From a virus: 54,472 bases of DNA. The DNA lies in the IMG/VR virus record IMGVR_UViG_3300023503_000001, positions 1 through 54,472 of that record; one strand, written 5' to 3'. Below the pieces are notes generated by a model. It was not told where the DNA came from and made no database searches. It saw only the letters and a list, made by a program, of their open reading frames with translations. This document shows positions 1 to 10,028 of the stretch, piece by piece. Both the position numbers and the translations under genes were made by a program. Within the stretch, counting starts at the first letter, position 1. Every line of letters starts with the position of its first letter.

Positions 1-84
1 AACTATAACTTCGTGTAAAGCAAATCCAACTACAGATGAAATAAATTGAACTTAAACTTTTTTATCAGAACATGCCTTAAACAT
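1..84 (-). pseudogene. Left copy of the 5' end of the 107-residue protein, with early stop
   Basis: This is the start of the gene at 54055-54378, duplicated by the terminal overlap. The ATG lies at 84-82. The single mismatch between the copies turns the tyrosine codon TAT of the right copy into TAA at 54-52, so this copy would stop after ten codons. It is either an assembly-edge error or a minor population variant. The right copy should be taken as the gene. Confidence 0.7.
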
Positions 85-178
85 TTTAATTGCTCCACAT
101 TACTGAAATTATAGTTCCAAATATAAATCCAGCTATAAACATAGATAGATTCGTAAAAATAAGATCTATTTTTGATTC
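1..178. repeat. Terminal direct repeat, left copy
   Basis: Bases 1-178 repeat at 54295-54472 with a single difference: T at 52 versus A at 54346. This is the overlap expected when a circular or circularly permuted genome is linearised by assembly, so the leftward genes at the two ends form one continuous operon. A true short terminal repeat on the virion DNA cannot be excluded from sequence alone. Confidence 0.95.
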
Positions 179-220
179 TTCTTGTTTAGGTTTTTCGACA
201 TAATCTTTAGGTTGTTGCAT
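86..220 (-). CDS. Small membrane protein, 44 aa
   Basis: I chose the ATG at 220 because AAGGAA lies about eight bases upstream, and because the longer in-frame start at 271 would overlap the tRNA-Arg gene. The first half is charged and rich in Lys, Glu and Gln. The second half (about residues 23-41) is one hydrophobic helix with small residues, ending in MWSN. This suggests a single-pass inner-membrane micro-protein of unknown role. Its stop lies one base before the start of the next leftward gene (84 in this copy, 54378 in the other), so they are co-transcribed across the junction. Confidence 0.7.
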   Translation of the reverse strand: MQQPKDYVEKPKQEESKIDLIFTNLSMFIAGFIFGTIISVMWSN

Positions 221-238
221 CTTATGTTCCTTATCAAC

Positions 239-315
239 TGGCACCCCTGACAGGACTCGAACCTGTAACACCGAGGGTAGAAACCTCGTGTTCTATCCGG
301 TTGAGCTACAGGGGC
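239..315 (-). tRNA. tRNA-Arg(UCU)
   Basis: A complete 77-nt cloverleaf. The acceptor is GCCCCTG paired with CAGGGGT (G1-U72 wobble), the anticodon stem is CGAGG/CCTCG, the loop TTTCTAC gives anticodon TCT, and the T arm is ACAGG-TTCGAGT-CCTGT. The discriminator is G and CCA is encoded. The D stem GCTC/GAAC has one mismatch. It reads AGA, and AGG by wobble, codons expected to be common in this AT-rich phage. It lies four bases from the next tRNA. Confidence 0.95.
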
Positions 316-319
316 AAAA

Positions 320-395
320 TGGTGGGCCCACCAGGATTTGAACCTGGGACCAAGAGATTATGAGTCTCCTGCTCTAACCACTGAGCTATAGGCCC
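320..395 (-). tRNA. tRNA with CAU anticodon, probably tRNA-Ile2 (AUA-reading)
   Basis: A complete 76-nt cloverleaf with GGGCCTA/TGGGCCC acceptor, anticodon loop CTCATAA (CAT), T loop TTCAAAT and encoded CCA. The D arm and anticodon region (AGTGGTTAGAGCAGG, GACTCATAATC, TTGGTC) match bacterial tRNA-Ile2 as I recall it more closely than elongator or initiator tRNA-Met. If so, the host TilS enzyme would convert C34 to lysidine so that it reads AUA. Elongator tRNA-Met remains the alternative. Confidence 0.9.
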
Positions 396-524
396 AAAAC
401 TATTATACCTCAAAATCTAAACAGGTACGTGTGTTATTTGTAATTGTTTTTAGTATGATTGGTGCTATCATTGAAGCCATTGTAGATTACTTCGTTTATT
501 GAAAAATGTGATGAATGCTTTAAT

Positions 525-800
525 TCATATTAAATCATGACATTTAGACGCACCATAGCGCTTTATACATTTTCTCTCTTCAATAAGAAGATCTAACCTT
601 TCATTAGCTTCCTGCTCGAGTCGGAGCAGATCTAATGTAGGAATTTTAAATTTTACTTTATGTCCACTTTTCCACCTAACAATTAGGTCTTCAATATAAT
701 CATTAGGCAAACCTACGCTTGGATCAGCTGGCGCTATCTGAGCCTCAACTATTACAGATAATCCACTTTTAATAGTGGATTCAAATTCAAATTTGTACAT
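525..800 (-). CDS. Hypothetical protein, 91 aa
   Basis: The start at 800 is preceded by GAGAGGAAC about eight bases upstream and by a promoter of the phage early family (827-856). The protein has an N-terminal beta-rich half and a C-terminal charged helix (about residues 55-80) rich in Leu, Glu and Arg. It ends in a short Cys-containing tail. I recognise no family. It sits between the tmRNA and the tRNA-Ile/tRNA-Arg pair and is probably the first gene of the leftward transcript that carries those tRNAs. Confidence 0.75.
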   Translation of the reverse strand: MYKFEFESTIKSGLSVIVEAQIAPADPSVGLPNDYIEDLIVRWKSGHKVKFKIPTLDLLRLEQEANERLDLLIEERKCIKRYGASKCHDLI

Positions 801-826
801 AATTTGTTCCTCTCTATTTTAAAAAT

Positions 827-856
827 ATTTTAACAAATTTGAATTTATTTGTAAAA
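827..856 (-). promoter_or_regulatory. Early promoter, degenerate member of the repeated family
   Basis: On the minus strand, -35 TTTTAC (856-851) and -10 TAAAAT (832-827) are separated by 18 bases, about 25 bases before the start codon of the 91-residue gene. An AT-rich stretch lies immediately upstream, as in the better-conserved members of this family. Confidence 0.55.
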
Positions 857-920
857 TTAAAATTTTTTATTTAGCTATAAAATATAGCTATATGAAATAT
901 ATTTAACTATCCATAGTGTT

Positions 921-980
921 CTAAATATTTTTCAATATTTCTGCGTAGCTCATTTCTTCATCGCCTAACCAAGTTGTGCG
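921..980 (-). other. Candidate tmRNA tag reading frame
   Basis: Downstream of the coding-piece tRNA-like start, one frame ends at TAG (923-921) and reads ...TTWLGDEEMSYAEILKNI. The acidic middle resembles degradation tags, but the C-terminus lacks the usual LAA or VAA ending. The resume codon cannot be fixed by eye because this frame stays open further upstream. Two other frames give very short products (AHNLVRR or AQLG). Confidence 0.4.
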
Positions 981-1150
981 CTTTGATTTCAGCCGATGTA
1001 ATTTAGCAAGTGCTTCGCTGAACGCACCTGGACCGTCCACTTGCGTTCGTGTACCCGTCGAAACCCGTCACCTCCGTCATGGTGGAAGTGGGTGGAATCG
1101 AACCCCTGTCCGAACGCCATCACGTTCGCTTCATCCGGCCAGTTGCCAAC
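921..1150 (-). ncRNA. ssrA: Circularly permuted two-piece tmRNA (ssrA)
   Basis: Reading leftward, the tRNA-like 3' half (T loop TTCGATT at 1102-1096, acceptor CACTTCC 1090-1084, A, CCA 1082-1080) comes first. After only four bases (TGAC, 1079-1076) the 5' half follows: GGAGGTG (1075-1069), then the D-loop-like GGTTTCGACGGG hallmark. GGAGGTG pairs with CACTTCC over seven base pairs (one G-U), and CGAACGC (1049-1043) pairs perfectly with GCGTTCG (1117-1111), giving the long tmRNA helix between the pieces. This is the gene order of permuted tmRNAs known in alphaproteobacteria, cyanobacteria and some betaproteobacteria. Oddities: the G-U wobble falls at 4-69 rather than the alanine-identity 3-70, the T stem has two mismatches, and the acceptor piece could also fold CGAACG/CGTTCG on itself. 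The outer ends of both pieces are estimates. Confidence 0.85.
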
Positions 1151-1172
1151 CTCACCGGGAGTGAGATTCTTT
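1140..1172 (-). repeat. Hairpin element, copy 1
   Basis: On the minus strand this reads AGAATCTCACTCCCGGTGAG then GTTGGCAACTGG. It forms a hairpin (CTCAC/GTGAG) followed by a GTTG-G-CAAC palindrome. A diverged copy lies at 1330-1364. In each case the stop codon of a small membrane-protein gene falls at the 3' arm of the hairpin. Confidence 0.6.
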
Positions 1173-1310
1173 CGAGGCCGTGAAATAGTCGCGCATCACT
1201 TCTTCCTCATAATCGTCGTCGTCGAGATCAATATCAGGTGGTTCGCTGAAAACAGCGATCACTATTAGGCACATCACACCGACGGCAAACACTGCAAACA
1301 AGGCGTCCAT
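1152..1310 (-). CDS. Single-pass membrane micro-protein, 52 aa
   Basis: The ATG at 1310 follows GAGGGG with six-base spacing. Residues 2-21 form a hydrophobic helix (ALFAVFAVGVMCLIVIAVF), followed by a very acidic cytosolic or periplasmic tail (PPDIDLDDDDYEEE) and a short basic end. I recognise no family. The gene ends immediately before the tmRNA acceptor piece, so the tmRNA precursor is probably transcribed with this small-gene operon. The GC content is well above that of the replication genes. Confidence 0.7.
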   Translation of the reverse strand: MDALFAVFAVGVMCLIVIAVFSEPPDIDLDDDDYEEEVMRDYFTASKESHSR

Positions 1311-1329
1311 TACATTCCCCTCTATCTAC

Positions 1330-1364
1330 TCAGTTGTCAACTTCACCGGGGGGGTGAAATTCTA
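1330..1364 (-). repeat. Hairpin element, copy 2
   Basis: On the minus strand this reads AGAATTTCACCCCCCCGGTG then AAGTTGACAACTG. The stem is TTCACC/GGTGAA, followed by GTTG-A-CAAC. It is clearly related to the copy at 1140-1172 and keeps both palindromic parts while the sequence has drifted. Confidence 0.6.
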
Positions 1365-1459
1365 AAAATTTTTCGAAGCACAAACAGTCCAAACGCTAAA
1401 AGCAAATACCCAACTGCCAATAGGATTTATGCCGCAAGTATCCATAACAGATCATGCAT
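1343..1459 (-). pseudogene. Membrane micro-protein gene with internal stop
   Basis: An AAAGGT site lies about eight bases before the ATG at 1459. The frame reads MHDLLWILAA, then TAA (1429-1427), then continues ILLAVGYLLLAFGLFVLRKI and a short basic tail to TGA at 1345-1343. Without the stop this would be a 38-residue protein with one long membrane helix and a positive C-terminal end. The stop splits the hydrophobic segment, so the gene looks broken unless read through. All three stop codons end normal genes elsewhere in the genome, so general stop recoding is unlikely. Confidence 0.5.
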
Positions 1460-1756
1460 TCATGCACCTTTCTTCTCATTATGTGCTTGTTGAAAGCCGA
1501 GCTCTATGACAGGACATCCGTTGCGATGTGCTCCGCGTTCTGAGCGGTAAATGCCACATGTACCTCTACGACATTTTGCACGCGCCCACTCTTCTACCTG
1601 GCGCAGGTCGTTGGTCAGCTGCTTCAGTATGTCGGCAACTTCAGGAGCGGCATCCAGATATTTTGCGCCGTAGGGAAAGAGACTCGGCGTTTCTACGAGA
1701 TTGTTGGCAAGGGTTGCCAGCTCGCGGGCGCGTTTGATCAATTCATCGTGATTCAT
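1460..1756 (-). CDS. Hypothetical protein, 98 aa, paralogue of 2394-2609
   Basis: It starts at ATG 1756, overlapping the stop of the upstream gene by four bases. The N-terminus MNHDELIKRARELA closely matches MSNDELIKRAREVA of the gene at 2394-2609. Both continue as helical proteins with a VADIL-Q or VANLLEQ segment. The C-terminal third has three Cys residues and a His (CRRGTCGIYRSERGAHRNGC), a possible metal site absent from the paralogue. Its base composition is GC-rich like its neighbours. The function is unknown. Confidence 0.7.
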   Translation of the reverse strand: MNHDELIKRARELATLANNLVETPSLFPYGAKYLDAAPEVADILKQLTNDLRQVEEWARAKCRRGTCGIYRSERGAHRNGCPVIELGFQQAHNEKKGA

Positions 1757-1992
1757 TGCCCTTCCCTCTCCATCTGTGCCAGGTCGCCCGCATCAAATGT
1801 GTTGGCGTACGGGACACCTGTGATTCCCGCGAACTTGCGGCACCGGAACTGCTTGGCGTTCGTCCGGCTCACCCGCATCTGGAGTAGATGCCCGGTGCTC
1901 ATGAAGTTGAACACGGCCACGTAGATCCAGTTCGACCACCAGCGCCAGCGGCCGATCTTCACATTTTCCACGGTCAGCACGTTGACTTTCAT
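1753..1992 (-). CDS. Hypothetical protein, 79 aa
   Basis: The ATG at 1992 is preceded by TAGGAGAAAG about nine bases upstream. The central part contains a tryptophan-rich strand pattern (GRWRWWSNWIYVAVF), followed by basic residues and the motif KQFRCRKFAGITGVPYANTF. No family is recognised. It is small, basic and lacks a clear membrane helix. It overlaps the downstream gene by the four-base ATGA arrangement, which implies translational coupling. Confidence 0.7.
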   Translation of the reverse strand: MKVNVLTVENVKIGRWRWWSNWIYVAVFNFMSTGHLLQMRVSRTNAKQFRCRKFAGITGVPYANTFDAGDLAQMEREGQ

Positions 1993-2040
1993 CAGAGCTT
2001 TCTCCTAAGTATTTCTCTCCTTGTCGCAAACCACGAAGGT

Positions 2041-2172
2041 TTAAATAGTCGGCCTACCCCATGTACGTGTTACGGTAACTTTCACACCAGGGCTATCGGG
2101 ATACCATAGTCTAACCGTCTTTGGACGTAAAACGATGTTGTATAAAGGTACAATCAAGACTTTTATTTTCAT
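2041..2172 (-). CDS. Small basic protein, 43 aa
   Basis: The reading frame runs from ATG at 2172 to TAA at 2043-2041, with a weak GAGA site upstream. The product (MKIKVLIVPLYNIVLRPKTV, then a segment with WYPDSPGVKVTVTRTWGRP) looks like a short beta-rich domain with conserved-looking Pro, Gly and Trp residues. The gene falls between the tRNA-Thr side and the 79-residue gene and fills an otherwise empty gap. No family is recognised. Confidence rests on position, spacing and composition. Confidence 0.55.
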   Translation of the reverse strand: MKIKVLIVPLYNIVLRPKTVRLWYPDSPGVKVTVTRTWGRPTI

Positions 2173-2187
2173 AAGTAATTTCTCAAC

Positions 2188-2262
2188 TTAGAAAAAATTT
2201 TTAGGATCGTATAAAATTAAAAGTACTAACACAAAAGCTATTAAAATTAATATTGAATCCAT
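2188..2262 (-). CDS. Possible membrane micro-protein, 24 aa
   Basis: A short frame from ATG 2262 to TAA 2190-2188 encodes MDSILILIAFVLVLLILYDP and four more residues, almost entirely one membrane helix. The upstream ribosome site is poor (AGAGAC). It lies in the leader between tRNA-Thr and the next gene. It could equally be untranslated sequence. Confidence 0.35.
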   Translation of the reverse strand: MDSILILIAFVLVLLILYDPKNFF

Positions 2263-2277
2263 ATTAGTCTCTAAATT

Positions 2278-2353
2278 TGGAGCCAGAGACAGGAATCGAA
2301 CCCGCGACATCCTCATTACAAGTGAGGCGCTCTACCTACTGAGCTACTCTGGC
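2278..2353 (-). tRNA. tRNA-Thr(UGU)
   Basis: A complete 76-nt cloverleaf with acceptor GCCAGAG/CTCTGGC, D stem GCTC/GAGC, anticodon stem CCTCA/TGAGG, loop CTTGTAA (anticodon TGT), T arm GCGGG-TTCGATT-CCTGT with G-U pairs, discriminator T and encoded CCA. It reads ACA. It lies within the GC-rich cassette between two groups of small genes. Confidence 0.95.
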
Positions 2354-2393
2354 ATTATAGCACAAATAAACGGAAGTCGAACCCACACTCTGT

Positions 2394-2609
2394 CTATAAA
2401 TGTAGCTCCTCTTTCTGTTCTGCTATCGCCTCGTGCGCTAATTGCGCGGACATGTCGAGTTTCTCCAGACGATCGGCCATCTGCTCAAGCAAATTTGCCA
2501 CCTCGTCTGCATAAGCTGCCTTGTTCAATACCCCAGTCTCGGTGAGTGGCTGCGATTTGATGTCGTTCGCCACCTCTCTGGCGCGTTTGATCAGTTCGTC
2601 GTTGCTCAT
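2394..2609 (-). CDS. Hypothetical protein, 71 aa, paralogue of 1460-1756
   Basis: I chose the ATG at 2609 (MSNDELIKRAREVA) because GCGAGG sits six bases upstream, and because the longer in-frame extension would run through the repetitive micro-protein gene in another frame. The protein is all helical and acidic, with a likely coiled-coil (VANLLEQMADRLEKLD). It is homologous to the N-terminal half of the 98-residue protein at 1460-1756, so one arose by duplication. The ATG overlaps the TGA of the upstream micro-protein gene. Confidence 0.7.
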   Translation of the reverse strand: MSNDELIKRAREVANDIKSQPLTETGVLNKAAYADEVANLLEQMADRLEKLDMSAQLAHEAIAEQKEELHL

Positions 2610-2713
2610 TTCAACCTCGCCCACGGTGATGACAGGAGCGCCAGGATCGCGGCGCAGATGACGACTATCAGGATCGCGGCGCAGATGACGACTATCAGGA
2701 TCGGCTCGCTCAC
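2606..2713 (-). CDS. Membrane micro-protein with internal duplication, 35 aa
   Basis: GTG at 2713 overlaps the TGA of the upstream gene (GTGA), and its own TGA overlaps the ATG of the next gene. This is the tight coupling seen throughout the operon. The product is VSEPILIVVICAAI followed by an exact repeat of the nine residues ILIVVICAA, then LALLSSPWARLK: one hydrophobic helix with a positive end. The repeat reflects a perfect 27-bp DNA duplication (2644-2697). A role in the membrane, for example as a toxin or lysis modulator, is speculation. Confidence 0.6.
   Translation of the reverse strand: MSEPILIVVICAAILIVVICAAILALLSSPWARLK
2644..2697. repeat. Perfect 27-bp tandem duplication
   Basis: The unit starting GGATCGCGGCGCAGATGACG occupies 2644-2670 and 2671-2697 exactly, with six more matching bases at 2698-2703. 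Its length keeps the micro-protein frame open. Confidence 0.95.
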
Positions 2714-3156
2714 AGCACCACCTCGCCTCGGTTGAGCTTATCAACAAGCTCCTCAACTTTTTCTCTCGGGCCGTAAGGTATCCAGGGGTTCCTGTATGCC
2801 ACGTCACACGAAGCATCCCACTCCTCAAACTGTACGTCGTATTCAGGAAAGTACGCGGGTAGTCCGGTCTCCGGCACCTCGTAGTCGGGCCAATGCTCCA
2901 GGGCATAGGCGACAAGTCGGTGGTGGACGCGCATGAGGTCGGCTGCCCGTGCTGCCAGGGCTTGGGTTGGGTACTCAAGGCCGAAGCGTCTGCGCATGGA
3001 TGATTCGATGCCCTCGCCTACATCCCCCCAACCGTTCACATAGAACCGCCCGCCCTTCGGCTCCCATTGTTGCGGCTTCGGGGGTTCGATGGTGATGCTC
3101 TCACCGCGTTGTAAAACATCCCACTGCTCATCAGTAAACTGAATTGTCTTGCTCAT
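2710..3156 (-). CDS. Hypothetical phage protein, 148 aa
   Basis: I chose the second Met (3156) because AAGGAG lies about seven bases upstream. The protein begins with a short helix-strand segment (KTIQFTDEQWDVLQRGESIT), then a Trp/Gly-rich stretch (WEPKGGRFYVNGWGDVG), a helical middle (ARAADLMRVHHRLVAYALEH) and an acidic C-terminus. The layout resembles small uncharacterised proteins of tailed phages with WEPKGG motifs, but I cannot name a family. It is GC-rich and heads the tightly coupled cassette that ends at the tmRNA. Confidence 0.75.
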   Translation of the reverse strand: MSKTIQFTDEQWDVLQRGESITIEPPKPQQWEPKGGRFYVNGWGDVGEGIESSMRRRFGLEYPTQALAARAADLMRVHHRLVAYALEHWPDYEVPETGLPAYFPEYDVQFEEWDASCDVAYRNPWIPYGPREKVEELVDKLNRGEVVL

Positions 3157-3364
3157 GATCACACTCCTTATTATGGATCAATCTATTCAATGTCTCTTCT
3201 ATTTGACGTGCTTTTACTCGATGGATGTAAAGTCTTTGCATATTTGGATAATAATTCATCATCCGCAATTTTGGACTAAATGAATTGCGCTTCAATACAA
3301 AGACAAACCAAAACCAATCAAAAAACCCAACGGCTTTAATTTCTTTGATGTATCTTTTTAGCAT
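3131..3364 (-). CDS. Hypothetical protein, 77 aa
   Basis: The start at 3364 lies inside the end of the upstream gene and the end overlaps the next gene by 26 bases. The N-terminal half is aromatic and hydrophobic (VGFFDWFWFVFVLKRNSF) and could sit at a membrane. The C-terminal half is a basic helix (RLYIHRVKARQIEETLNRLI). No strong ribosome site is visible, so the start is less certain than its neighbours. No function is recognised. Confidence 0.6.
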   Translation of the reverse strand: MLKRYIKEIKAVGFFDWFWFVFVLKRNSFSPKLRMMNYYPNMQRLYIHRVKARQIEETLNRLIHNKECDHEQDNSVY

Positions 3365-3707
3365 TGATTAAATCCGTATAAATCTCACAAGAATTTGGTC
3401 GGCATTTATCTGAGTCTAGAGCACAACCACCATCTACAAAGTTGGTACAAGTTTCATAAAGAGATTGTTGCTCGCATATTTTAAAAAGCATGGGATATTG
3501 ATTATCCACGCTAAAATTCATTTCTTTTCCAAGTTGTATGGAAGGCAACAATTTTTGAGCAACATAACGAGCACCTTCTTTTGTTATAGGCTGGGCCATA
3601 TAAACGCAATGAAAAACTGCGTCATTCAGTGTTTTGAATTGGGTGCGCAATGGACGCCAGAAGAAATCTGAGCCCTCTTTTTCTTTTCTAAAAGCTATAT
3701 AGCTCAT
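3336..3707 (-). CDS. Hypothetical protein with C-terminal Cys cluster, 123 aa
   Basis: The ATG at 3707 follows GAGGAGG about seven bases upstream and overlaps the previous stop (ATGA). The N-terminal two thirds are a mixed alpha/beta region. The C-terminus has a cysteine pattern (C-x6-GGC-x6-C-x3-SCEIY) that may bind a metal. A similar GG-x-C-x2-SC-x-IY pattern occurs in the small protein at 53405-53557, suggesting a shared zinc-binding motif. The role is unknown. Confidence 0.7.
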   Translation of the reverse strand: MSYIAFRKEKEGSDFFWRPLRTQFKTLNDAVFHCVYMAQPITKEGARYVAQKLLPSIQLGKEMNFSVDNQYPMLFKICEQQSLYETCTNFVDGGCALDSDKCRPNSCEIYTDLINAKKIHQRN

Positions 3708-4009
3708 AGTATATCCTCCTCTTGCTCGTTTAGCTCTTTTCGTTTTATTTTCCAGTAAAGAGGACCATAACCTCTAAGGGCAAACAATTCTTCAATATTT
3801 ATTGGCTTAGCCCATTCACCCCACTTAATGAGCTTAACAGTTGGCTTATCCTCTCTTACTTTTTTGATGAGTTTAATTATTTTATCGTCCTCCCAAGGCT
3901 GAGCACCATCCCACCCCATCAGATTTTGAAAAGGCGGAATTTGCTCTCCTTTTTCATCAAGGAACGTAGTATTTCCGTTAGTAAATAGTGCTATTTGGGA
4001 GATCTTCAT
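3704..4009 (-). CDS. Hypothetical protein, 101 aa
   Basis: The start at 4009 is preceded by GGAGGT. The protein is mixed alpha/beta, with several Trp residues in its middle (NLMGWDGAQPWEDDK) and a strongly basic patch near its C-terminus (YWKIKRKELNEQEED). I recognise no family. It is the first protein gene after the structured RNA and tRNA-Leu, and so is probably read from the promoter at 4312-4341. Confidence 0.7.
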   Translation of the reverse strand: MKISQIALFTNGNTTFLDEKGEQIPPFQNLMGWDGAQPWEDDKIIKLIKKVREDKPTVKLIKWGEWAKPINIEELFALRGYGPLYWKIKRKELNEQEEDIL

Positions 4010-4031
4010 AATTTACCTCCATCATCAATGA

Positions 4032-4119
4032 TGGTGCCCGAGGCCGGACTCGAACCGGCACTGTCTTACGACAGGCAGATTTTAAGTCTGCTGCGTCTAC
4101 CAAATTTCGCCACTCGGGC
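4032..4119 (-). tRNA. tRNA-Leu(UAA)
   Basis: An 88-nt class II tRNA with GCCCGAG/CTCGGGC acceptor, anticodon stem GCAGA/TCTGC, loop CTTAAAA (anticodon TAA), a long variable arm (CTGTC/GACAG), T loop TTCGAGT and encoded CCA. It reads UUA. It starts three bases after the closing stem of the structured RNA at 4123-4293 and is presumably processed from the same transcript. Confidence 0.95.
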
Positions 4120-4122
4120 AAT

Positions 4123-4293
4123 AAAGTTTATTAAAGAACTCCTGTGAGAGTGAGGCCTTTAAACTTAACACCTCATTTGAGATGATGGCTAGCACACCAT
4201 CTCCTTTCTACTCTATTGTAGAATCACTCCTATGGCCACTTGAAGCAGGGTTCTTCAACAACCCCTCTACACAGGAGCTCTTCAATAAACTTT
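4123..4293 (-). ncRNA. Unidentified structured RNA closed by a 24-bp stem
   Basis: Bases 4270-4293 and 4123-4146 pair over 24 positions. The only two non-Watson-Crick positions are U-G wobbles on the minus strand but A-C mismatches on the plus strand, so the RNA is leftward. Inside are a hairpin GGGUU-GUUGAAG-AACCC whose loop UUGAAG can pair with CUUCAA just downstream (pseudoknot), a CUAC/GUAG hairpin, a nine-pair hairpin GAGAUGGUG/CAUCAUCUC with one G-U, and a GAGG/CCUC hairpin. A promoter ends just upstream (4312-4341) and tRNA-Leu follows by three bases. I cannot match it to a known RNA family from memory. Confidence 0.7.
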
Positions 4294-4311
4294 AAACATT
4301 TTGTAAAATAA

Positions 4312-4341
4312 ATTATAATTTAATTGAAAGAAAAAGTAAAA
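4312..4341 (-). promoter_or_regulatory. Early promoter for structured RNA and tRNA-Leu
   Basis: Minus-strand -35 TTTTAC (4341-4336) and consensus -10 TATAAT (4317-4312) have an 18-base spacer and are preceded by the family-typical AAAAAAGTTTAA. Transcription should begin near 4305, about twelve bases before the structured RNA. Confidence 0.75.
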
Positions 4342-4396
4342 TTAAACTTTTTTATAGCCTTATAAATTTAATTTATAGGGCACTATCTATTTAACA

Positions 4397-4800
4397 CTAA
4401 AGAAAATGTTGAAAACGAGCCTTCATAGCATCAATTGTCTTCTGTGGCACGTCATGTGCACTTTTATTTCCGTGTAAATTATTGACAGTCAGTACAATTA
4501 CTTCATAATCCTCCTCTTCTGCTTTGTTGAGATATTTTTTGAACTCCCAACACTGTGTGTTTGTACTGTCTACGATAACAGTGGTTTCTCGACGTTCGAG
4601 AGCCTCTCAGAATTGCCGGAAACAGGCGGCGTGGGCTAAGTGCAATTTCTTGCTATCGAAAACATATTCACCATACTCATTAACGAAATAGTTGTCGGCG
4701 GACACGACAACAGTATCACAGGGATTCAAACTGACGAGTAACTCTGCGAAATGTGACTTCCAGAACAAGGCAATCCACGTAAGATAATGCATGTCGACAT
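4397..4800 (-). pseudogene. P-loop nucleotide kinase gene (N4BP2-like), frameshifted and interrupted
   Basis: Reading from ATG 4800 gives MSTCIILRGLPCSG, a good P-loop start. One A appears lost at 4757-4761 (GGAAG where GGAAAG would give SGKS). The frame then continues KSHFAELLVSLNPCDTVVVS and ADNYFVNEYGEYVFDSKKLH, meets an in-frame TGA at 4609-4607, and resumes EALERRETTVIVDSTNT to TAG at 4399-4397. The pieces align with P-loop kinases of the AAA_33/N4BP2 type (P-loop, S-A-D-x-Y-F, VDxTNT). Two independent lesions within about 400 bases indicate decay. Sequencing error in the A run could explain one of them but not the TGA. Confidence 0.8.
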
Positions 4801-4802
4801 AA

Positions 4803-5057
4803 TTAATTCCTCGCTTGTTTTACAAATGACACAGCTTCTTTCCACTCAAAGAACTCACCTTGAGTAAAGAGTCGAAAACACTCCTCACCAAACCCTGTCA
4901 TACTAACGACGAGTTCATTATCAGACTCACGTCGCCTGAAAGATATACAACGCAAACGAAACAAGCTCGCAAGTGTCATAAAGTGAAACTGCGGTGCTTT
5001 TCTCTCTTTAATGAAGAGTAATCGCAGACAATGTTTCTGGGATTCAGAAAATTTCAT
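4803..5057 (-). CDS. Hypothetical protein, 84 aa
   Basis: This small basic protein has the N-terminal helix SESQKHCLRLLFIKERK and a beta-like middle with FRLRCISFRRRESDNELVVS. It starts at 5057, three bases after the end of the upstream gene, and ends two bases before the kinase pseudogene, so it belongs to the same leftward operon. No family is recognised. Confidence 0.65.
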   Translation of the reverse strand: MKFSESQKHCLRLLFIKERKAPQFHFMTLASLFRLRCISFRRRESDNELVVSMTGFGEECFRLFTQGEFFEWKEAVSFVKQARN

Positions 5058-5060
5058 AAG

Positions 5061-5357
5061 TCACCTCACTTGTTTACAGGTGAGGTACACAGTTTCAAAA
5101 GGTGATGACAAAGAAACTTTCGATTTTAATTTAAGTTCCTTAATAAGATCAATAACATTTTCGTTAAGAAGCTGTAATGTTTCTTCATTGATATAAAGCT
5201 CCCTGAAACATTCTTTCAAACTATTTATTATAGGATGAAGAACATCAGACATTATGACGTAGGTCATAGTACATTGTGTAGGATCAAAACCGCGGACTGA
5301 GTCGACGGCGAAATTATTTGTGTAAACAAAAACTTTGCACGGATAGTTATTAGACAT
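5061..5357 (-). CDS. Hypothetical protein, 98 aa
   Basis: I chose the ATG at 5357 because GAGGAG lies nine bases upstream. The frame stays open to 5558, but that extension crosses the TGCGAA repeat cluster and lacks a comparable ribosome site. The protein starts with beta strands (CKVFVYTNNFAVDSVRGF) and ends with a helix (LQLLNENVIDLIKELKLKSK). No family is recognised. Confidence 0.65.
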   Translation of the reverse strand: MSNNYPCKVFVYTNNFAVDSVRGFDPTQCTMTYVIMSDVLHPIINSLKECFRELYINEETLQLLNENVIDLIKELKLKSKVSLSSPFETVYLTCKQVR

Positions 5358-5477
5358 GACTATCACTCCTCTATAACTAAGCTGACAAAACAAAGAAAAG
5401 GAAAAAATTTTCACGAAGCAAGACATTTTCCTTACAGAAGAAATTTTGTGTAAATTTTTTGAAAAAATCTCACTTTG

Positions 5478-5575
5478 TATATGCGAAGTTACGCGAAAAT
5501 AGCAAAAATGCCTTGCGATGTTATGCGAAAGACCACAATCGCACATAATCGCGCACAATCGCGATTTGCGAAACC
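5478..5575. repeat. Cluster of TGCGAA/TCGCA half-sites
   Basis: In the gap upstream of the 98-residue gene, TGCGAA, CGCGAA, TGCGAT, ATCGCACA and ATCGCGCACA elements follow one another with short AT-rich spacers. They share the core of the inverted repeats at 6046-6078 and 11219-11305. The pattern looks like multiple binding half-sites for one protein. No gene is convincingly encoded here. Confidence 0.55.
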
Positions 5576-5585
5576 TTTGTCTCCG

Positions 5586-5903
5586 TCAAATTTCTTCTCT
5601 CTCACGCCCTCGCGGAGTATGTTTCATATAGTAACCTTTCAAATACTCCCAATCTATTAACGCATAACAAATCACAAGAAGTTCTCTAATGAATTCTGCG
5701 TTTGATGCAAACTCTAACTCCTCATTTAGGAGGTTATCTTCCATCAAGAATAGATTAAAATCTGTTGCAAAATCTTCGATGGAAAAGAGTTGATCTGGGT
5801 CGTAAAAATTGATAACAGCCTGCGTTAGGCTCTTTATTTTATCTTCTACTGATGAAGCCACAGCTTGTTGATATTGATGTTGATCTGTAGTATTTTCTTT
5901 CAT
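5586..5903 (-). CDS. Hypothetical protein, 105 aa
   Basis: The ATG at 5903 has TTAGGAGGT about six bases upstream and the early promoter 5940-5968 directly before that. The protein is acidic and largely helical (SSVEDKIKSLTQAVINFYD, then LFLMEDNLLNEELEFASNAE), with a basic C-terminal tail. No membrane segment or motif is recognised. It is the promoter-proximal gene of a short operon that runs through 4803. Confidence 0.7.
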   Translation of the reverse strand: MKENTTDQHQYQQAVASSVEDKIKSLTQAVINFYDPDQLFSIEDFATDFNLFLMEDNLLNEELEFASNAEFIRELLVICYALIDWEYLKGYYMKHTPRGREREEI

Positions 5904-5939
5904 AATGAACCTCCTAACAAAATTTCAATTTATACTTAT

Positions 5940-5968
5940 ATTATAGTTTAAATTTTTAAAAAGTACAA
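5940..5968 (-). promoter_or_regulatory. Early promoter, consensus member
   Basis: Minus-strand TTGTAC (5968-5963), a 17-base spacer, then TATAAT (5945-5940), preceded by AAAAAAGTTTAA. It matches the promoters at 8614-8643, 8920-8948, 9417-9446, 10877-10905 and 48860-48888. Confidence 0.85.
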
Positions 5969-6045
5969 TTAAACTTTTTTATTTTTGAATAAAATTTATT
6001 TATATCATTTTTACAATTTTTATAAAATTATAAATATAGTGCATT

Positions 6046-6078
6046 TTCGCAAAATGCGAAAAATTTCGCATTTGCGAA
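6046..6078. promoter_or_regulatory. Paired TTCGCA/TGCGAA inverted repeats
   Basis: Two adjacent palindromes lie here: TTCGCAAAATGCGAA at 6046-6060 (three-base spacer) and TTCGCATTTGCGAA at 6065-6078 (two-base spacer). They sit just downstream of an AT-rich stretch (TTTACA, TATAAA at about 6008-6035) that could be a rightward promoter. An operator or an initiator-protein site is likely. Confidence 0.65.
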
Positions 6079-6753
6079 AAACATCCAGTAACAATTTATA
6101 AAATTATTACTGCGTTGTTAAACTGTAAAATTGTAATTCTTATAAGTGTTTCGCGCACAATGTACCGGGCAGGCGTCCCTACCTGGGCGAGGGAGCCGAC
6201 CAAGCGAAGTTTGATGAATAATCACCCGAATTCACTATAACAAATTTGCTCTTCGCACGAGTTCGCATACATTCGCAAGCACAACGCAGCGTCGTCCTCA
6301 CCTGGATGACCTAGGGCCTGTCTTGTACTGGCTGGGGAGTCTTAGTTTCGCACAGCGTTGCATAACTTCGTTCAAGTTCGCAAAGTATAAATGAGTCAGG
6401 CCCCCCTGGGTAACTACCTTGAGTTGACTGCGTTGGCCCCCCCCCACTCGGGGCTAAATTGGCATTAAGTAGCGGGCGTGTGAAGAGCCAAAAGGCCTAG
6501 TGTCCAAGAGTGCACACACCCGAACTAGTGCATTTCTATATTCATAAAAAAAAAAAAAATATTATATATACATATATATGTTATTATTCTAGTAATTACA
6601 GACTGCTAGTCTGTAAGCTAGGCCCAGTCGATTTGGCTTGGGCCTAGTGCGTTTTGATGGATGTATGTCCTTGGCGGGCCCGTCATAGGAAGGACCTGGG
6701 CCTGGCTGGGCTCGACCAGGGACAGCGCTGTGTCTCTTTTGTGTGCGAAAATC

Positions 6754-6768
6754 TTCGCAACTTGCGAA
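6754..6768. promoter_or_regulatory. TTCGCA-ACT-TGCGAA inverted repeat
   Basis: A perfect six-base inverted repeat with a three-base spacer. A TGCGAA half-site (6744-6749) lies five bases to its left. It belongs to the same family as 6046-6078 and 11219-11305. Confidence 0.6.
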
Positions 6769-6785
6769 AAAATTTATTAAAAGGT

Positions 6786-6813
6786 AAAAAATGCCTCCCA
6801 CAATTGGGAGGCA
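6786..6813 (-). terminator. Intrinsic terminator of the 6831-8537 operon
   Basis: An eight-pair stem GCCTCCCA/TGGGAGGC (6793-6800/6805-6812) with loop CAAT is followed on the minus strand by TTTTTT (6791-6786). Confidence 0.9.
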
Positions 6814-6830
6814 AAACTACCAAGAGAAAG

Positions 6831-7016
6831 TTATGATGTTTTTGGAGGAGGCAAGAGCAATTTAGGCTCTGGCGGGGTTGATTTTTGTTGGACGGTAAAG
6901 GTGGGTGTTTTCTTTGACAGTGTAGTTTGCTTGAAGTAAGCCACACAGTCAACACAACCACAGAAAGGAGCATCAACGCAGATTGTAGGCATACCAACGC
7001 AGATTGTATGATTCAT
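6831..7016 (-). CDS. Small Cys-rich protein, 61 aa
   Basis: The ATG at 7016 follows TTAGGAGGT with eight-base spacing. The N-terminal half holds five Cys residues (TICVGMPTICVDAPFCGCVD and one more four residues later), a likely metal-binding or disulphide knuckle. The C-terminal half is low-complexity and rich in Pro, Lys and Thr (STPPEPKLLLPPPK). It is the last gene before the terminator at 6786-6813. No family is recognised. Confidence 0.65.
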   Translation of the reverse strand: MNHTICVGMPTICVDAPFCGCVDCVAYFKQTTLSKKTPTFTVQQKSTPPEPKLLLPPPKTS

Positions 7017-7048
7017 GACAAATACCTCCTAAAGGAAAGAGGCTAGGA

Positions 7049-7348
7049 TTAAAAGATATACCAGCTATCGAACTCAAATTGAGGACGTTCGCCTTCTGGT
7101 GCTCTGTTGATATTGCGAGCTACGGCGATCTTATAACCAGCGTTATGGAGCGTGAGAGCGGCAGCTGGATGAACTACACCAACAATTGTATTGAGTGGTT
7201 GGCCATTAAGTCTTACTGTGGTTAGTAGTTTTTCCATGTTGAAGGCGTCAACATCACCAACCTCTTTGATTTGGGTCACGCCGAGATTTTTGAGTGCTTC
7301 TATTTGTTTACCATTCAGTGAATGACGGCTAATCCAAAGAAATTTCAT
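7049..7348 (-). CDS. Hypothetical alpha/beta protein, 99 aa
   Basis: I chose the second Met (MKFLWISRHSLNGKQIEALK) at 7348 because GGAGGAA lies about eight bases upstream and the start then overlaps the previous stop. The pattern of strands and helices, with conserved-looking motifs such as VGVVHPAAALTLHNAGYKI and a C-terminal FDSWYIF, suggests a compact Rossmann-like fold. I cannot name the family. Confidence 0.7.
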   Translation of the reverse strand: MKFLWISRHSLNGKQIEALKNLGVTQIKEVGDVDAFNMEKLLTTVRLNGQPLNTIVGVVHPAAALTLHNAGYKIAVARNINRAPEGERPQFEFDSWYIF

Positions 7349-7566
7349 TTGTGGTTCCTCCAAGTGTGTCCAATTTGGCCAATAACTTTGTCAATCAAGA
7401 GATTTGACAAAAGCACAAAAAAGATATAAGGTGGGCCTATCATACCAAAAATGGCATATGTCTTCAATAGCATCCACCAAAATTCTTCACCTTGTGGGCC
7501 TGAGGGCCATGGTGCCCAAAGCGAAAGGCTTAAGGCTGAGAAAAAAATTGTTATCGCTATTTTCAT
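7345..7566 (-). CDS. Two-helix membrane protein, 73 aa
   Basis: Residues 1-18 are hydrophobic (MKIAITIFFSALSLSLWA), followed by a loop with PWPSGPQGEE and a long hydrophobic segment (about residues 33-60: LLKTYAIFGMIGPPYIFFVL onward). The protein ends with a basic tail (IGHTWRNHK). The first segment could be a signal anchor. It overlaps both neighbours by four bases, so it is translationally coupled. It may be a small inner-membrane early protein. No family is recognised. Confidence 0.65.
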   Translation of the reverse strand: MKIAITIFFSALSLSLWAPWPSGPQGEEFWWMLLKTYAIFGMIGPPYIFFVLLSNLLIDKVIGQIGHTWRNHK

Positions 7567-7871
7567 TGCAATTGCCCCGCCCAGCGCTCAAGATATTGCT
7601 CATACTCGCCTACAATATAGGCGAATAGATACTTTTCCAAAGTAGTAAGGTCTGTGTTTACAAACCGCCACTTCTCGAGCTCCAGAACGTAAGCATTTTG
7701 TTCTGGTGACCACTTAATGGCCCAGTGGTTGTCGTAGAGATAACCAACCCCACCCTCAGGGTAGGCATGAGATACATCACTAGGGACCGCAGATCTTTGC
7801 CATCTTGTAAATGCCAACCACCAAATTGTGGACTTTTCGTTAAATGGATAGACCTCATCAAATTCAAGCAT
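7563..7871 (-). CDS. Hypothetical protein, 102 aa
   Basis: The ATG at 7871 follows GAGGAGG with seven-base spacing. The protein is rich in Trp and Tyr, with a beta-rich first half (EVYPFNEKSTIWWLAFTRWQ) and a helical end (LTTLEKYLFAYIVGEYEQYL). There is no membrane segment or known motif. Its ATGA overlap with the membrane-protein gene downstream suggests they are made together. Confidence 0.65.
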   Translation of the reverse strand: MLEFDEVYPFNEKSTIWWLAFTRWQRSAVPSDVSHAYPEGGVGYLYDNHWAIKWSPEQNAYVLELEKWRFVNTDLTTLEKYLFAYIVGEYEQYLERWAGQLQ

Positions 7872-7917
7872 TATAGCCTCCTCTATGTCCTGATTAGAGA
7901 TGATTGATTAACCACCT

Positions 7918-7946
7918 CTAAAAAGGACACAGTCAGAAACTGTGTC
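7918..7946 (-). terminator. Hairpin with U tract
   Basis: Stem GACACAGT/ACTGTGTC (7926-7933/7939-7946), followed on the minus strand by CTTTTT. It lies between the 49-residue gene and the ribosome site of the 102-residue gene and may terminate part of the upstream transcription. Confidence 0.65.
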
Positions 7947-7953
7947 AAAGGAG

Positions 7954-7983
7954 CAAGAGCCCTAGAGAGGAGAGACTAGGACT
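7954..7983 (-). other. Hairpin just after the 49-residue gene
   Basis: AGAGCCCTAG and CTAGGACTCT pair over ten positions. The only imperfect position is a U-G wobble on the minus strand. There is no U tract directly after it. It probably protects or shapes an mRNA end. Confidence 0.5.
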
Positions 7984-7984
7984 C

Positions 7985-8134
7985 TCACGTGAACCACCGC
8001 TGAGCTATGATACACCGCCGACCAACAGTCGTTAACCAGCCCCGAAGGGGGTCTGAGCTGAAGTCCACTAGTTTTAGTACTTCATCTTCTGTCCACACCC
8101 AAAATAAGGCCTTGAAATATGGAAAATGTTGCAT
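7985..8134 (-). CDS. Small protein, 49 aa
   Basis: I chose the internal Met at 8134 (MQHFPYFKALFWVWTEDEVL) because GAGGAG lies six bases upstream. The longer start at 8182 would lie within the terminator at 8152-8183. The short product is aromatic at its N-terminus and basic at its C-terminus (TTVGRRCIIAQRW). Its function is unknown. Confidence 0.55.
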   Translation of the reverse strand: MQHFPYFKALFWVWTEDEVLKLVDFSSDPLRGWLTTVGRRCIIAQRWFT

Positions 8135-8151
8135 GGAAGTCTCCTCTGTGT

Positions 8152-8183
8152 AAAAAAGAGATGTGACACTTACGTGCCACATC
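8152..8183 (-). terminator. Intrinsic terminator after the 114-residue paralogue gene
   Basis: Ten-pair stem GATGTGACAC/GTGCCACATC (8160-8169/8174-8183; one G-U on the minus strand) with loop TTAC, then CTTTTTT leftward. It separates the highly expressed-looking gene 8193-8537 from the weaker downstream genes. Confidence 0.85.
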
Positions 8184-8192
8184 CCTTAGTTG

Positions 8193-8537
8193 TCATGCTT
8201 CTTTTTCTTGCTTGGCCCACTCGAGGGCCATGGCAATGTAGTTATAGGCATGCTGATTTGAGCTGTACTTCTTGCCATTAACTTCACACATGCTTTTGAT
8301 GAGCTCCTTCTTAGGCATTTTACCATAGTTGGCACGAAGGAACTCGACAGTAGGGCCCCAGTCTGAAGAACCACTATGTGCGACTATGCCGAGCTCTTCT
8401 TTGAGCTCTTTGACGGTCTTTTTTGCTTCGTTTGTTGAAAAATCATGAGCGTAGATAAGGAATCCTTCCGCCTTGGCGGAAGTTGCACCAGCTTCCAGGA
8501 GTTCACGAGCTTGATCAATGGGGTTGACGTTTGCCAT
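8193..8537 (-). CDS. Two-module HTH-like protein, 114 aa, paralogue of 10339-10689
   Basis: Two helical modules are visible. The first (about residues 5-55) contains AHDFSTNEAKKTVKELKEEL. The second (about 60-114) contains VEFLRANYGKMPKKELIKSM, NQHAYNYIAMALEWAKQE. The second is almost the same as in 10339-10689, and a relative closes the 192-residue protein at 48216-48794. The modules look like small helix-turn-helix units, so a DNA-binding role is likely, perhaps an abundant chromatin-like or regulatory protein. It has its own consensus promoter (8614-8643) and terminator. The family name is not known to me. Confidence 0.8.
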   Translation of the reverse strand: MANVNPIDQARELLEAGATSAKAEGFLIYAHDFSTNEAKKTVKELKEELGIVAHSGSSDWGPTVEFLRANYGKMPKKELIKSMCEVNGKKYSSNQHAYNYIAMALEWAKQEKEA

Positions 8538-8613
8538 GGTTGTTTACCTCACGGTAATGGTCCTGCTATGGTAGATATGAATAGAGTGGCAGGACATTCG
8601 CTCTATACATATA

Positions 8614-8643
8614 ATTATAGACAAAAAGTTTAAAAAAGTACAA
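8614..8643 (-). promoter_or_regulatory. Early promoter, consensus member
   Basis: Minus-strand TTGTAC (8643-8638), an 18-base spacer and TATAAT (8619-8614), preceded by AAAAGAGTTTAA. It drives the paralogue gene 8193-8537. Confidence 0.85.
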
Positions 8644-8674
8644 TTAAACTCTTTTATCTATGTATAAGTTTTAT

Positions 8675-8887
8675 TTATGTCATGTTTTCAAAATCATGTA
8701 AACTACAATCTACTTTCTTACCACCTGGCGTTTCAAGTATCCATGCATCTTCATATGATATGTCCATTATATCACAAAACAGATAGAAAAAGTCAAATAT
8801 GGTCATATCATGATGTGGCCACATCTTGACATAGTAGCATTTACTGCTACTAAGATCTTTCAACTTACCATGTCTTAGTTTGCTCAT
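8675..8887 (-). CDS. Hypothetical protein, 70 aa
   Basis: The ATG at 8887 is preceded by AGGAAG about nine bases upstream and by the promoter at 8920-8948. The middle is hydrophobic and aromatic (MTIFDFFYLFCDIMDISYED) but contains acidic residues, so it is probably soluble. It has a compact alpha/beta pattern with a C-terminal GGKKVDCSLHDF. No family is recognised. It appears to form a single-gene transcription unit. Confidence 0.65.
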   Translation of the reverse strand: MSKLRHGKLKDLSSSKCYYVKMWPHHDMTIFDFFYLFCDIMDISYEDAWILETPGGKKVDCSLHDFENMT

Positions 8888-8919
8888 GGTTTACTTCCTG
8901 TTGTCCACTTATACTTATA

Positions 8920-8948
8920 ATTATAGGCAAAAAAATTAAAAAATACAA
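8920..8948 (-). promoter_or_regulatory. Early promoter, consensus member
   Basis: Minus-strand TTGTAT (8948-8943), a 17-base spacer and TATAAT (8925-8920), preceded by AAAAATTCAA. It drives the 70-residue gene. Confidence 0.8.
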
Positions 8949-9043
8949 TTGAATTTTTCTATGAGCATATAAACTTATTTTATAACATGAGGCAAATACC
9001 GCCAGGGGTACCCGCCATATTTAGAATATAGCAACGCCAGAAG

Positions 9044-9071
9044 ATACCATAGGCTTCCTTGCCTATGGTAT
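9044..9071 (-). other. Perfect 11-bp hairpin with AAGGAA loop
   Basis: ATACCATAGGC and GCCTATGGTAT pair perfectly. On the minus strand, the transcribed one, the six-base loop is AAGGAA closed by C-G, as in the hairpin at 10293-10326. It follows the stop of the gene at 9082. On the plus strand it would look like a terminator (TTTTT follows), but no rightward gene precedes it. Confidence 0.7.
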
Positions 9072-9081
9072 TTTTGTTATG

Positions 9082-9348
9082 TTATTTTATTTCTATGTTA
9101 AATCTATGCCATTGAGTACCATCAAAATACTCAGCCCCCCATTCTTGCTCTCCATTTATGAAGATCATGTTTAGTAGGGTACTAATTACTGCTATAGGCA
9201 GTGACTCATGGTAAAGACTTGTTATGGCTTCATACAATTCTTCTTCTTCTTTGAATTTTATTGTCTTTGCATATTTTGTATATATTGTATCATTATTTTC
9301 TTGTAGTGGTGTGACAATGATGGTCAACTCAGTTTTGTCTTCAAACAT
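9082..9348 (-). CDS. Hypothetical acidic protein, 88 aa
   Basis: I chose the internal Met at 9348 (MFEDKTELTIIVTPLQENND) because AGAGGAAG lies about nine bases upstream. The upstream in-frame Met at 9390 would leave little room after the promoter at 9417. The order is a beta-strand N-terminus, a charged helix (KFKEEEELYEAITSLYHE) and a C-terminal WGAEYFDGTQWHRF strand pair. It is a small acidic alpha/beta early protein of unknown function. Confidence 0.65.
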   Translation of the reverse strand: MFEDKTELTIIVTPLQENNDTIYTKYAKTIKFKEEEELYEAITSLYHESLPIAVISTLLNMIFINGEQEWGAEYFDGTQWHRFNIEIK

Positions 9349-9416
9349 GGTATGCTTCCTCTTAGTAAGATATATGATGCACTTTATCAAGAGCTTTTTA
9401 AACTCTTGACATTTAT

Positions 9417-9446
9417 ATTATAGACTAAAAGAATTAAAAAGTACAA
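9417..9446 (-). promoter_or_regulatory. Early promoter, consensus member
   Basis: Minus-strand TTGTAC (9446-9441), an 18-base spacer and TATAAT (9422-9417). It drives the 88-residue gene. Confidence 0.85.
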
Positions 9447-9516
9447 TTGAATATTCTTTTAAGTCTATAAAATAAATTTATATGGTATTGAATACCATAG
9501 TGCACGCAGGATTGTG

Positions 9517-9557
9517 ATAAAAAAATAGCGGCAAGTTAAAAACTTACCGCTATTTAT
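9517..9557 (-). terminator. Intrinsic terminator after the 112-residue gene
   Basis: A long stem, AAATAGCGG-x-AAGTT paired with AACTT-x-CCGCTATTT, has one U-G wobble on the minus strand. It is followed leftward by seven T (9523-9517). Confidence 0.85.
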
Positions 9558-9572
9558 ATGGTAGTTTAATTA

Positions 9573-9911
9573 TCAGCTTTCAAATAGTTCAAGCTGTAAT
9601 TCTGCCATGTCTTTATCTATCACATTCTCATTATGAAAGAATGTGATCATAGGATTCACACCAGGTTTCATATCAAGCTTGAATATGTATGTTTCATTTT
9701 CATACTCAATATGAAACTCTACATGTGAGAGTTCAACTCTGATGTGTTTGATCACACCATAGTTTACAACTCTATATATTAAACTTGCTTGATTAAATGA
9801 TACATCATAAAATTCTGTATCATTTTCACAAAGCATGATAACATCTTCAATATCATGCTCTTTATTATCAATAATCAAGCAACCAGCACTAAAATATGCA
9901 TCTTGACTCAT
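9573..9911 (-). CDS. Hypothetical acidic protein, 112 aa
   Basis: The ATG at 9911 has an AGAGAG site upstream. The protein is mostly beta strands with acidic surfaces (HDIEDVIMLCENDTEFYDVS, then RVELSHVEFHIEYENETYIF). This suggests a beta sandwich or barrel. It has its own terminator (9517-9557) and a degenerate promoter upstream. The family is not recognised. Small acidic early proteins of this kind often inhibit host factors, but nothing here proves that. Confidence 0.65.
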   Translation of the reverse strand: MSQDAYFSAGCLIIDNKEHDIEDVIMLCENDTEFYDVSFNQASLIYRVVNYGVIKHIRVELSHVEFHIEYENETYIFKLDMKPGVNPMITFFHNENVIDKDMAELQLELFES

Positions 9912-9993
9912 GGTATCTACTCTCTTGGTAAGTTAAAATTTGTATCATATAAAATATGATACAGTTCATATCAAGAATATTACATTCTTGATA

Positions 9994-10028
9994 ATTATAT
10001 TATATTATATAATTTTCTCCTTGTAAAA
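9994..10028 (-). promoter_or_regulatory. Degenerate early promoter region
   Basis: TTTTAC (10028-10023) and two TATAAT candidates (10009-10004, 9999-9994) occur on the minus strand in the same context as the promoter family. The spacers (13 or 23 bases) are non-standard. It probably serves the 112-residue gene. Confidence 0.4.

Follow-up and report, generated by a model that had tools for sequence, protein, structure and literature searches.

Circularly permuted tmRNA genes, from which a two-piece RNA is made, are already known in phages. The methylophage Melnitz carries one such gene, and 53 two-piece tmRNAs have been counted in phage genomes (PMC9004378). The Rfam family RF04321 (tmRNA_permuted) was built as the general model of permuted tmRNAs (PMC11915505). 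Another form of tmRNA derivative is that of mycobacteriophage DS6A, a tag-less tRNA-like tmRNA that comprises scarcely more than the tRNA-like domain and is not reported as permuted. Whether or not it can be charged, a tRNA-like domain of this kind is a strong inhibitor of tmRNA, an effect that it may exert through titration of SmpB (PMC4131195). The element that we describe here is phage-encoded and permuted, as is the Melnitz gene, but the latter is of the alphaproteobacterial type and complete. As with the DS6A RNA it is a phage-encoded tmRNA derivative without a tag, but it retains most of the coding piece upstream of the place of the tag.

Our own scans found about 110 phage loci with a permuted tmRNA. 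In IMG/VR, one pattern scan for the permuted order picked out 70 loci; each of them parsed as a permuted tmRNA gene, and their spacers measure 3–19 nt. BLAST added the Stenotrophomonas phages BUCTxx99 (OR529408) and QDWS359 (ON331942), the Xanthomonas phages Rb1 and XacN1, and the Synechococcus phage S-CAM1. These relatives were found with patterns that fix the letters of the T-loop and D-loop, tmRNAs degenerate there falling outside the sample; the scan of bacterial genomes covered spacers of up to ~31 nt. Of the 108 relatives, 96 are recognised by ARAGORN as permuted tmRNAs carrying a tag. Among the 12 left uncalled, three run into a contig end; in the rest, some of which duplicate a locus, a tag can be seen, with the exception of L038: a recognisable tag is present in every complete relative but this one. 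All 20 of the relatives sampled, as well as L080 and L071, score 80–143 bits over the full RF04321 model, above its cut-off of 47 bits. The original prediction, made from the letters of the DNA, knew of no well-described permuted tmRNA in a phage; as a class, then, the find is not new. The permuted short-spacer architecture is established in phages, and the present copy is, on the comparisons that follow, an outlier of the set.

Several points about the relatives deserve mention in their own right. Complete permuted tmRNA genes stand without tmRNA annotation in L071 (OR529408, 1963–2288, tag ANDDVYVVALAA), L072 (ON331942, 1970–2387, tag ANDSVYAQAIAA), L073 (HQ634177, 1943–2257, tag ANTSDSAANNIVAFSRSTVAA), L074 (PQ569993, ~1500–1810, tag ANDDNFRPALRLAA) and L075 (AP018399, ~1450–1870, tag ANTFDYALAA); in QDWS359 an annotated hypothetical protein spans the gene on the opposite strand. 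The permuted phage tmRNA of L038 (~1087–1330) has the frame ANS-stop, with EEALPLAP following out of frame, which may be a frameshifted tag, a sequencing error or a very short tag. Cyanophage-type copies (L001, L003, L005, L010 and similar) encode no CCA after the discriminator base, whereas beta-type phage copies do. Rfam also reports, in other phage contigs, a type-P5 twister ribozyme (L018, 7310–7367, 42.0 bits) and an abiF RNA (L064, 391–427, 47.5 bits).

The window, that is the whole stretch of DNA analysed, is a virus record of 54,472 bases. Genes for terminase, portal, tape measure and DNA polymerase identify a tailed phage, and the terminase shares ~50% identity with its counterparts in Salmonella and Escherichia siphophages. 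Close relatives of the phage carrying the element were not found in the collections searched: the relative with an identical terminase (L078, 100%) is an 11.7-kb contig that begins downstream of the element's position, and the next (L079, 69%) is a 39.5-kb fragment without a tmRNA. The neighbouring proteins, at 525–800 and 1460–1756, have no viral relatives in a search of viral sequences. There is no SmpB gene in the record, so that any action of the RNA would use the SmpB of the host. Positions 1–10000 form an accessory region on the minus strand, with small ORFs that match no family, among which tRNAs are interspersed (Arg TCT, Met CAT, Thr TGT, Leu TAA), and GC content swings from ~24% to ~63% over positions 1–6000. 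ARAGORN reports four tRNAs and zero tmRNA in the window. On the minus strand, CCGGTGARGTTGRCAACTG occurs twice (1140–1158 and 1331–1349; 0.02 expected by chance), directly upstream of the tmRNA element and of a small membrane-like ORF (1310–1152); the copies are possibly a promoter or a stem-loop element.

The element itself lies on the minus strand and reads, from 1140 to about 921, GGCCGGATGAAGCGAACGTGATGGCGTTCGGACAGGGGTTCGATTCCACCCACTTCCACCA, then TGAC, then GGAGGTGACGGGTTTCGACGGGTACACGAACGC. The tRNA-like 3′ half precedes the 5′ half: the stretch 1107–1080 holds T-arm, acceptor 3′ strand and CCA, and after it come the spacer (1079–1076) and then the acceptor 5′ strand with GGGTTTCGACGGG (1075–1054). 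Its features, all on the minus strand, are as follows.

1080–1140: acceptor piece, which supplies the 3′ half of the tRNA-like domain and is encoded first; from the sequence and the RF04321 alignment
1091–1107: T-arm AGGGG-TTCGATT-CCACC, loop intact; from comparison with 108 relatives
1090–1084: acceptor 3′ strand CACTTCC; from the sequence
1083–1080: discriminator A and CCA (ACCA); from the sequence
1076–1079: spacer TGAC, the 4-nt intervening sequence between the pieces; from the sequence
1069–1075: acceptor 5′ strand GGAGGTG; from comparison with 108 relatives
1054–1066: tmRNA D-loop motif, start of the coding piece; from the sequence
1043–1049: CGAACGC, able to pair with GCGTTCG (1117–1111); from the sequence
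1031–1035: CGGTC, outer P2 strand, paired with GGCCG (1140–1136); from the Rfam model alignment
988–1029: possible H-type pseudoknot PK1, AGGTGC (1029–1024) with GCACTT (1013–1008) and TTCAGC (1022–1017) with GCTGAA (993–988)
958–993: frame AEIKAHNLVRR-stop at the conserved tag offset; from comparison with relatives
855–957: AT-rich stretch with AT-rich hairpins at 940–923 and 890–872; from base composition and comparison with relatives

All the motifs named in the original prediction are there: four bases between the halves, the D-loop hallmark at 1066–1054 and an acceptor stem, GGAGGTG/CACTTCC, paired at 7 of 7 positions with one G·U. The prediction did not name the strand, and it passed over the mismatches of the T-stem, the A-U at the third acceptor pair, the register of the inter-piece helix and the lack of a recognisable tag frame.

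Searched as 551 bases against 4227 Rfam families, the region matches RF04321 with 37.0 bits (E 6.2e-6) and RF01850 (beta_tmRNA) with 33.0 bits (E 1.1e-8). Neither score reaches its curated cut-off (47 and 84, respectively), and both matches are confined to the tRNA-like part, the RF04321 alignment spanning model positions 1–133 of 213 only. At gathering score Rfam leaves the element unreported, and ARAGORN does not call it; these are the two programs proposed at the outset as a check. Should we then see here a chance resemblance, or a degenerate tRNA instead of a tmRNA? The low score and the silence of ARAGORN would fit, yet this reading is barely credible: besides E-values of 6e-6 and 1e-8, the order of the motifs, the 4-nt spacer, the outer P2 helix and the context formed by ATGAAGC upstream and CGTTCGGAC recur in tagged phage tmRNAs, L015 and L072 among them, which for practical purposes refutes it. 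As judged from sequence, the element is derived from a circularly permuted tmRNA gene of the betaproteobacterial type, of the short-spacer kind common in phages. With the RF01850/RF04321 type it shares the succession of acceptor piece, spacer and coding piece, T-loop, D-loop motif, CCA and outer P2; it departs from it in an A3-U70 pair, a T-stem with 3 of 5 pairs, the lack of a degradation tag, a match to 133 of 213 positions and its 4-nt spacer. The latter length recurs in L015, L071, L049 and L018, with CTAC in BUCTxx99 (tag ANDDVYVVALAA) and CCGA in the IMG/VR locus L015 (tag ANDDVYAQAIAA). These two and QDWS359 (tag ANDSVYAQAIAA) are phage-encoded, permuted and similar in sequence as far as the coding piece, but, unlike the present element, they preserve every feature of a working tmRNA, and both ARAGORN and Rfam report them. 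It had been suggested that the RNA might reveal the lineage of the host; this cannot be read from it, as the nearest typed relatives belong to Stenotrophomonas and Xanthomonas phages, yet the RNA is beta-type.

The inter-piece helix that had been put forward, CGAACGC (1049–1043) with GCGTTCG (1117–1111), is indeed complementary over 7 bp, but it stands out of the P2 register of the family, where the Rfam alignment pairs UCG with CGG beside the D-loop, and shuffled sequences often (2179 of 5000) contain a 7-bp helix at some place in these two stretches. Within the acceptor piece a local hairpin competes with it, and so does another GCGTTC in the coding piece. Inner P2 can thus be drawn with 3 plus 2 of 3 pairs in register, or with 7 bp out of register. 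Outer P2, by contrast, is kept with 5 bp (GGCCG/CGGTC); its counterparts are GGCTGT/ACAGCC in L015 and CGCGGT/ACCGCG in L020, and since it differs from both helices, both strands have changed. A pseudoknot similar to PK1 (6 + 6 bp) can be drawn, but it is matched by 81 of 2000 shuffles, so that it is only suggestive, and it would overlap the expected resume codon. The stretch nevertheless folds better than its own shuffles (z −3.7).

Three features have been lost. The third acceptor pair is A3-U70 in place of G3·U70, and the next is G4·U69. The wobble pair at 3:70 is stated to be conserved across all ssrA sequences (PMC3968760), and with A3-U70 alanylation is lost both in vitro and in vivo (PMC6451123). 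G3·U70 is present in 108 of 108 parsed relatives (50 of them distinct in acceptor, T-stem and spacer taken together), and G·U stands at 3:70 in all 24 distinct stems found among the 70 loci of a scan that left position 3 free. Patterns for permuted tmRNAs with A3 returned chance matches only in viral and bacterial genome contigs. The T-stem, AGGGG/CCACC, has two mismatches (3 of 5 paired in register, or 4 with a bulged A), when it is paired 5 of 5 in 108 of 108 relatives; the pattern specific to it, TTCGANTCCACCCACNTCCA, gave 10 loci, none of them permuted.

The tag is the third loss. In beta-type relatives it mostly lies 64–65 nt after GGTTTCGAC and opens with A-N-D/E/S-like codons; here the frame AEIKAHNLVRR-stop sits 63 nt after GGTTTCGAC and starts with an alanine codon, but at this conserved resume site it lacks the hydrophobic, mostly Ala-Ala end of a tag, and the resume context GC-N-AAY-GA, shared by most of the beta-type relatives aligned, is missing. 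At the expected end of the tag, GC content falls, approximately, from 57% to 24%, and positions 855–957 are AT-rich; in relatives this part contains GC-rich 3′ hairpins and the last portion of the tag. The fall fits a mosaic junction, as though the 3′ part had been replaced, and the AT-rich stretch is likely to be one. A 39-aa frame, MDGPGAFSEALAKLHRLKSKRTTWLGDEEMSYAEILKNI, overlies the coding piece (1040–921); tried as a fragment of a gene, it was rejected, as searches of phages, plasmids, PHROGs and Pfam gave nothing significant.

With the alanine identity pair, T-stem pairs and tag gone, we consider it unlikely that the element performs ordinary trans-translation. One could still imagine a working permuted tmRNA with an unusual, non-degrading tag such as AEIKAHNLVRR, charged by a host AlaRS that tolerates A3-U70/G4·U69 or by another synthetase. 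The frame close to the conserved offset, with its alanine codon first, the fully paired acceptor and the possible PK1-like pseudoknot speak for it; yet A3-U70 eliminates alanylation, and the AlaRS listed as charging G4·U69 are archaeal and eukaryotic, with no bacterial enzyme among them (PMC7302879). Moreover the frame is short enough to be due to chance, PK1 would overlap the resume codon, and all complete relatives but one have a recognisable tag: we regard this reading as decidedly doubtful. The original prediction of a two-piece phage tmRNA is, then, correct on origin, in that the permuted arrangement stands and the nearest model is betaproteobacterial, too strong on function, as these losses leave a working RNA unsupported, and wrong on the novelty of the kind.

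Genes for tmRNA are common sites of integration (PMC11915505), and the element could in principle be the remnant of an attachment site, a piece of the permuted tmRNA gene of a host carried by an integrating phage. This is very improbable: the 54-kb record has no match to the tyrosine integrase (PF00589) or serine recombinase (PF00239) families, the element crosses the permuted junction and is no mere 3′-end fragment, and many phages carry complete copies.

The explanation that we find best, with about an even chance of being right on the sequence features at hand, is that of a decaying relic, left by phage mosaicism with its 3′ part as if replaced. Should it be transcribed together with the minus-strand genes around it, cleavage at the 4-nt spacer by RNase P and 3′ processing would still be possible, but the product would neither be charged by a bacterial AlaRS nor tag proteins. 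Counted in favour of a relic are the 37 bits over positions 1–133 of 213, against 80–143 bits over the full model in relatives, the A3-U70 pair, the damage to the T-stem, the missing GC-N-AAY-GA context, the GC step at the tag, the lack of an SmpB gene, the chance-only outcome of the A3 patterns, and the silence of ARAGORN here as compared with 96 of 108 relatives. Counted against it, the D-loop and T-loop motifs, discriminator A, CCA and the seven acceptor pairs are all intact, a PK1-like fold is possible, the folding z-score is −3.7, and outer P2 is kept with a pair changed from U-A to C-G with respect to L015, which looks like retained selection. Phage genomes, besides, usually shed dead sequence.

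A decoy, too, would be expected to keep the T-loop, D-loop, CCA and acceptor pairing and to lose alanine identity and tag, as this element does: it would be an RNA made and processed, but uncharged and tag-less, whose intact tRNA-like elbow would bind SmpB and block trans-translation in the host during infection. Only position 3 separates its acceptor from the stem GGGGGTG/CACTTCC of a relative (L003). This reading, which we hold to be unlikely, is built on a single sequence without a sign of selection; the elbow that binds SmpB may be weakened by the T-stem mismatches, an A3 form does not recur in IMG/VR or in bacterial genomes with the patterns used, and the motifs retained are the very ones by which the element was noticed. 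By analogy, the element would be the permuted counterpart of the DS6A tRNA-like domain, a tmRNA that the phage would have converted into a decoy with neither charge nor tag, titrating SmpB and so switching off trans-translation in the host. We make this proposal tentatively and hold it to be improbable.

Permuted tmRNAs with spacers of 3–19 nt occur widely among phages, and in the public phage records that we checked most of them carry no annotation. This is of use for annotation, and it bears on the reason why phages bring their own ribosome-rescue RNA. The single copy that has lost charging and tag is either an ordinary relic or a natural test case for the interference of phages with ribosome rescue.
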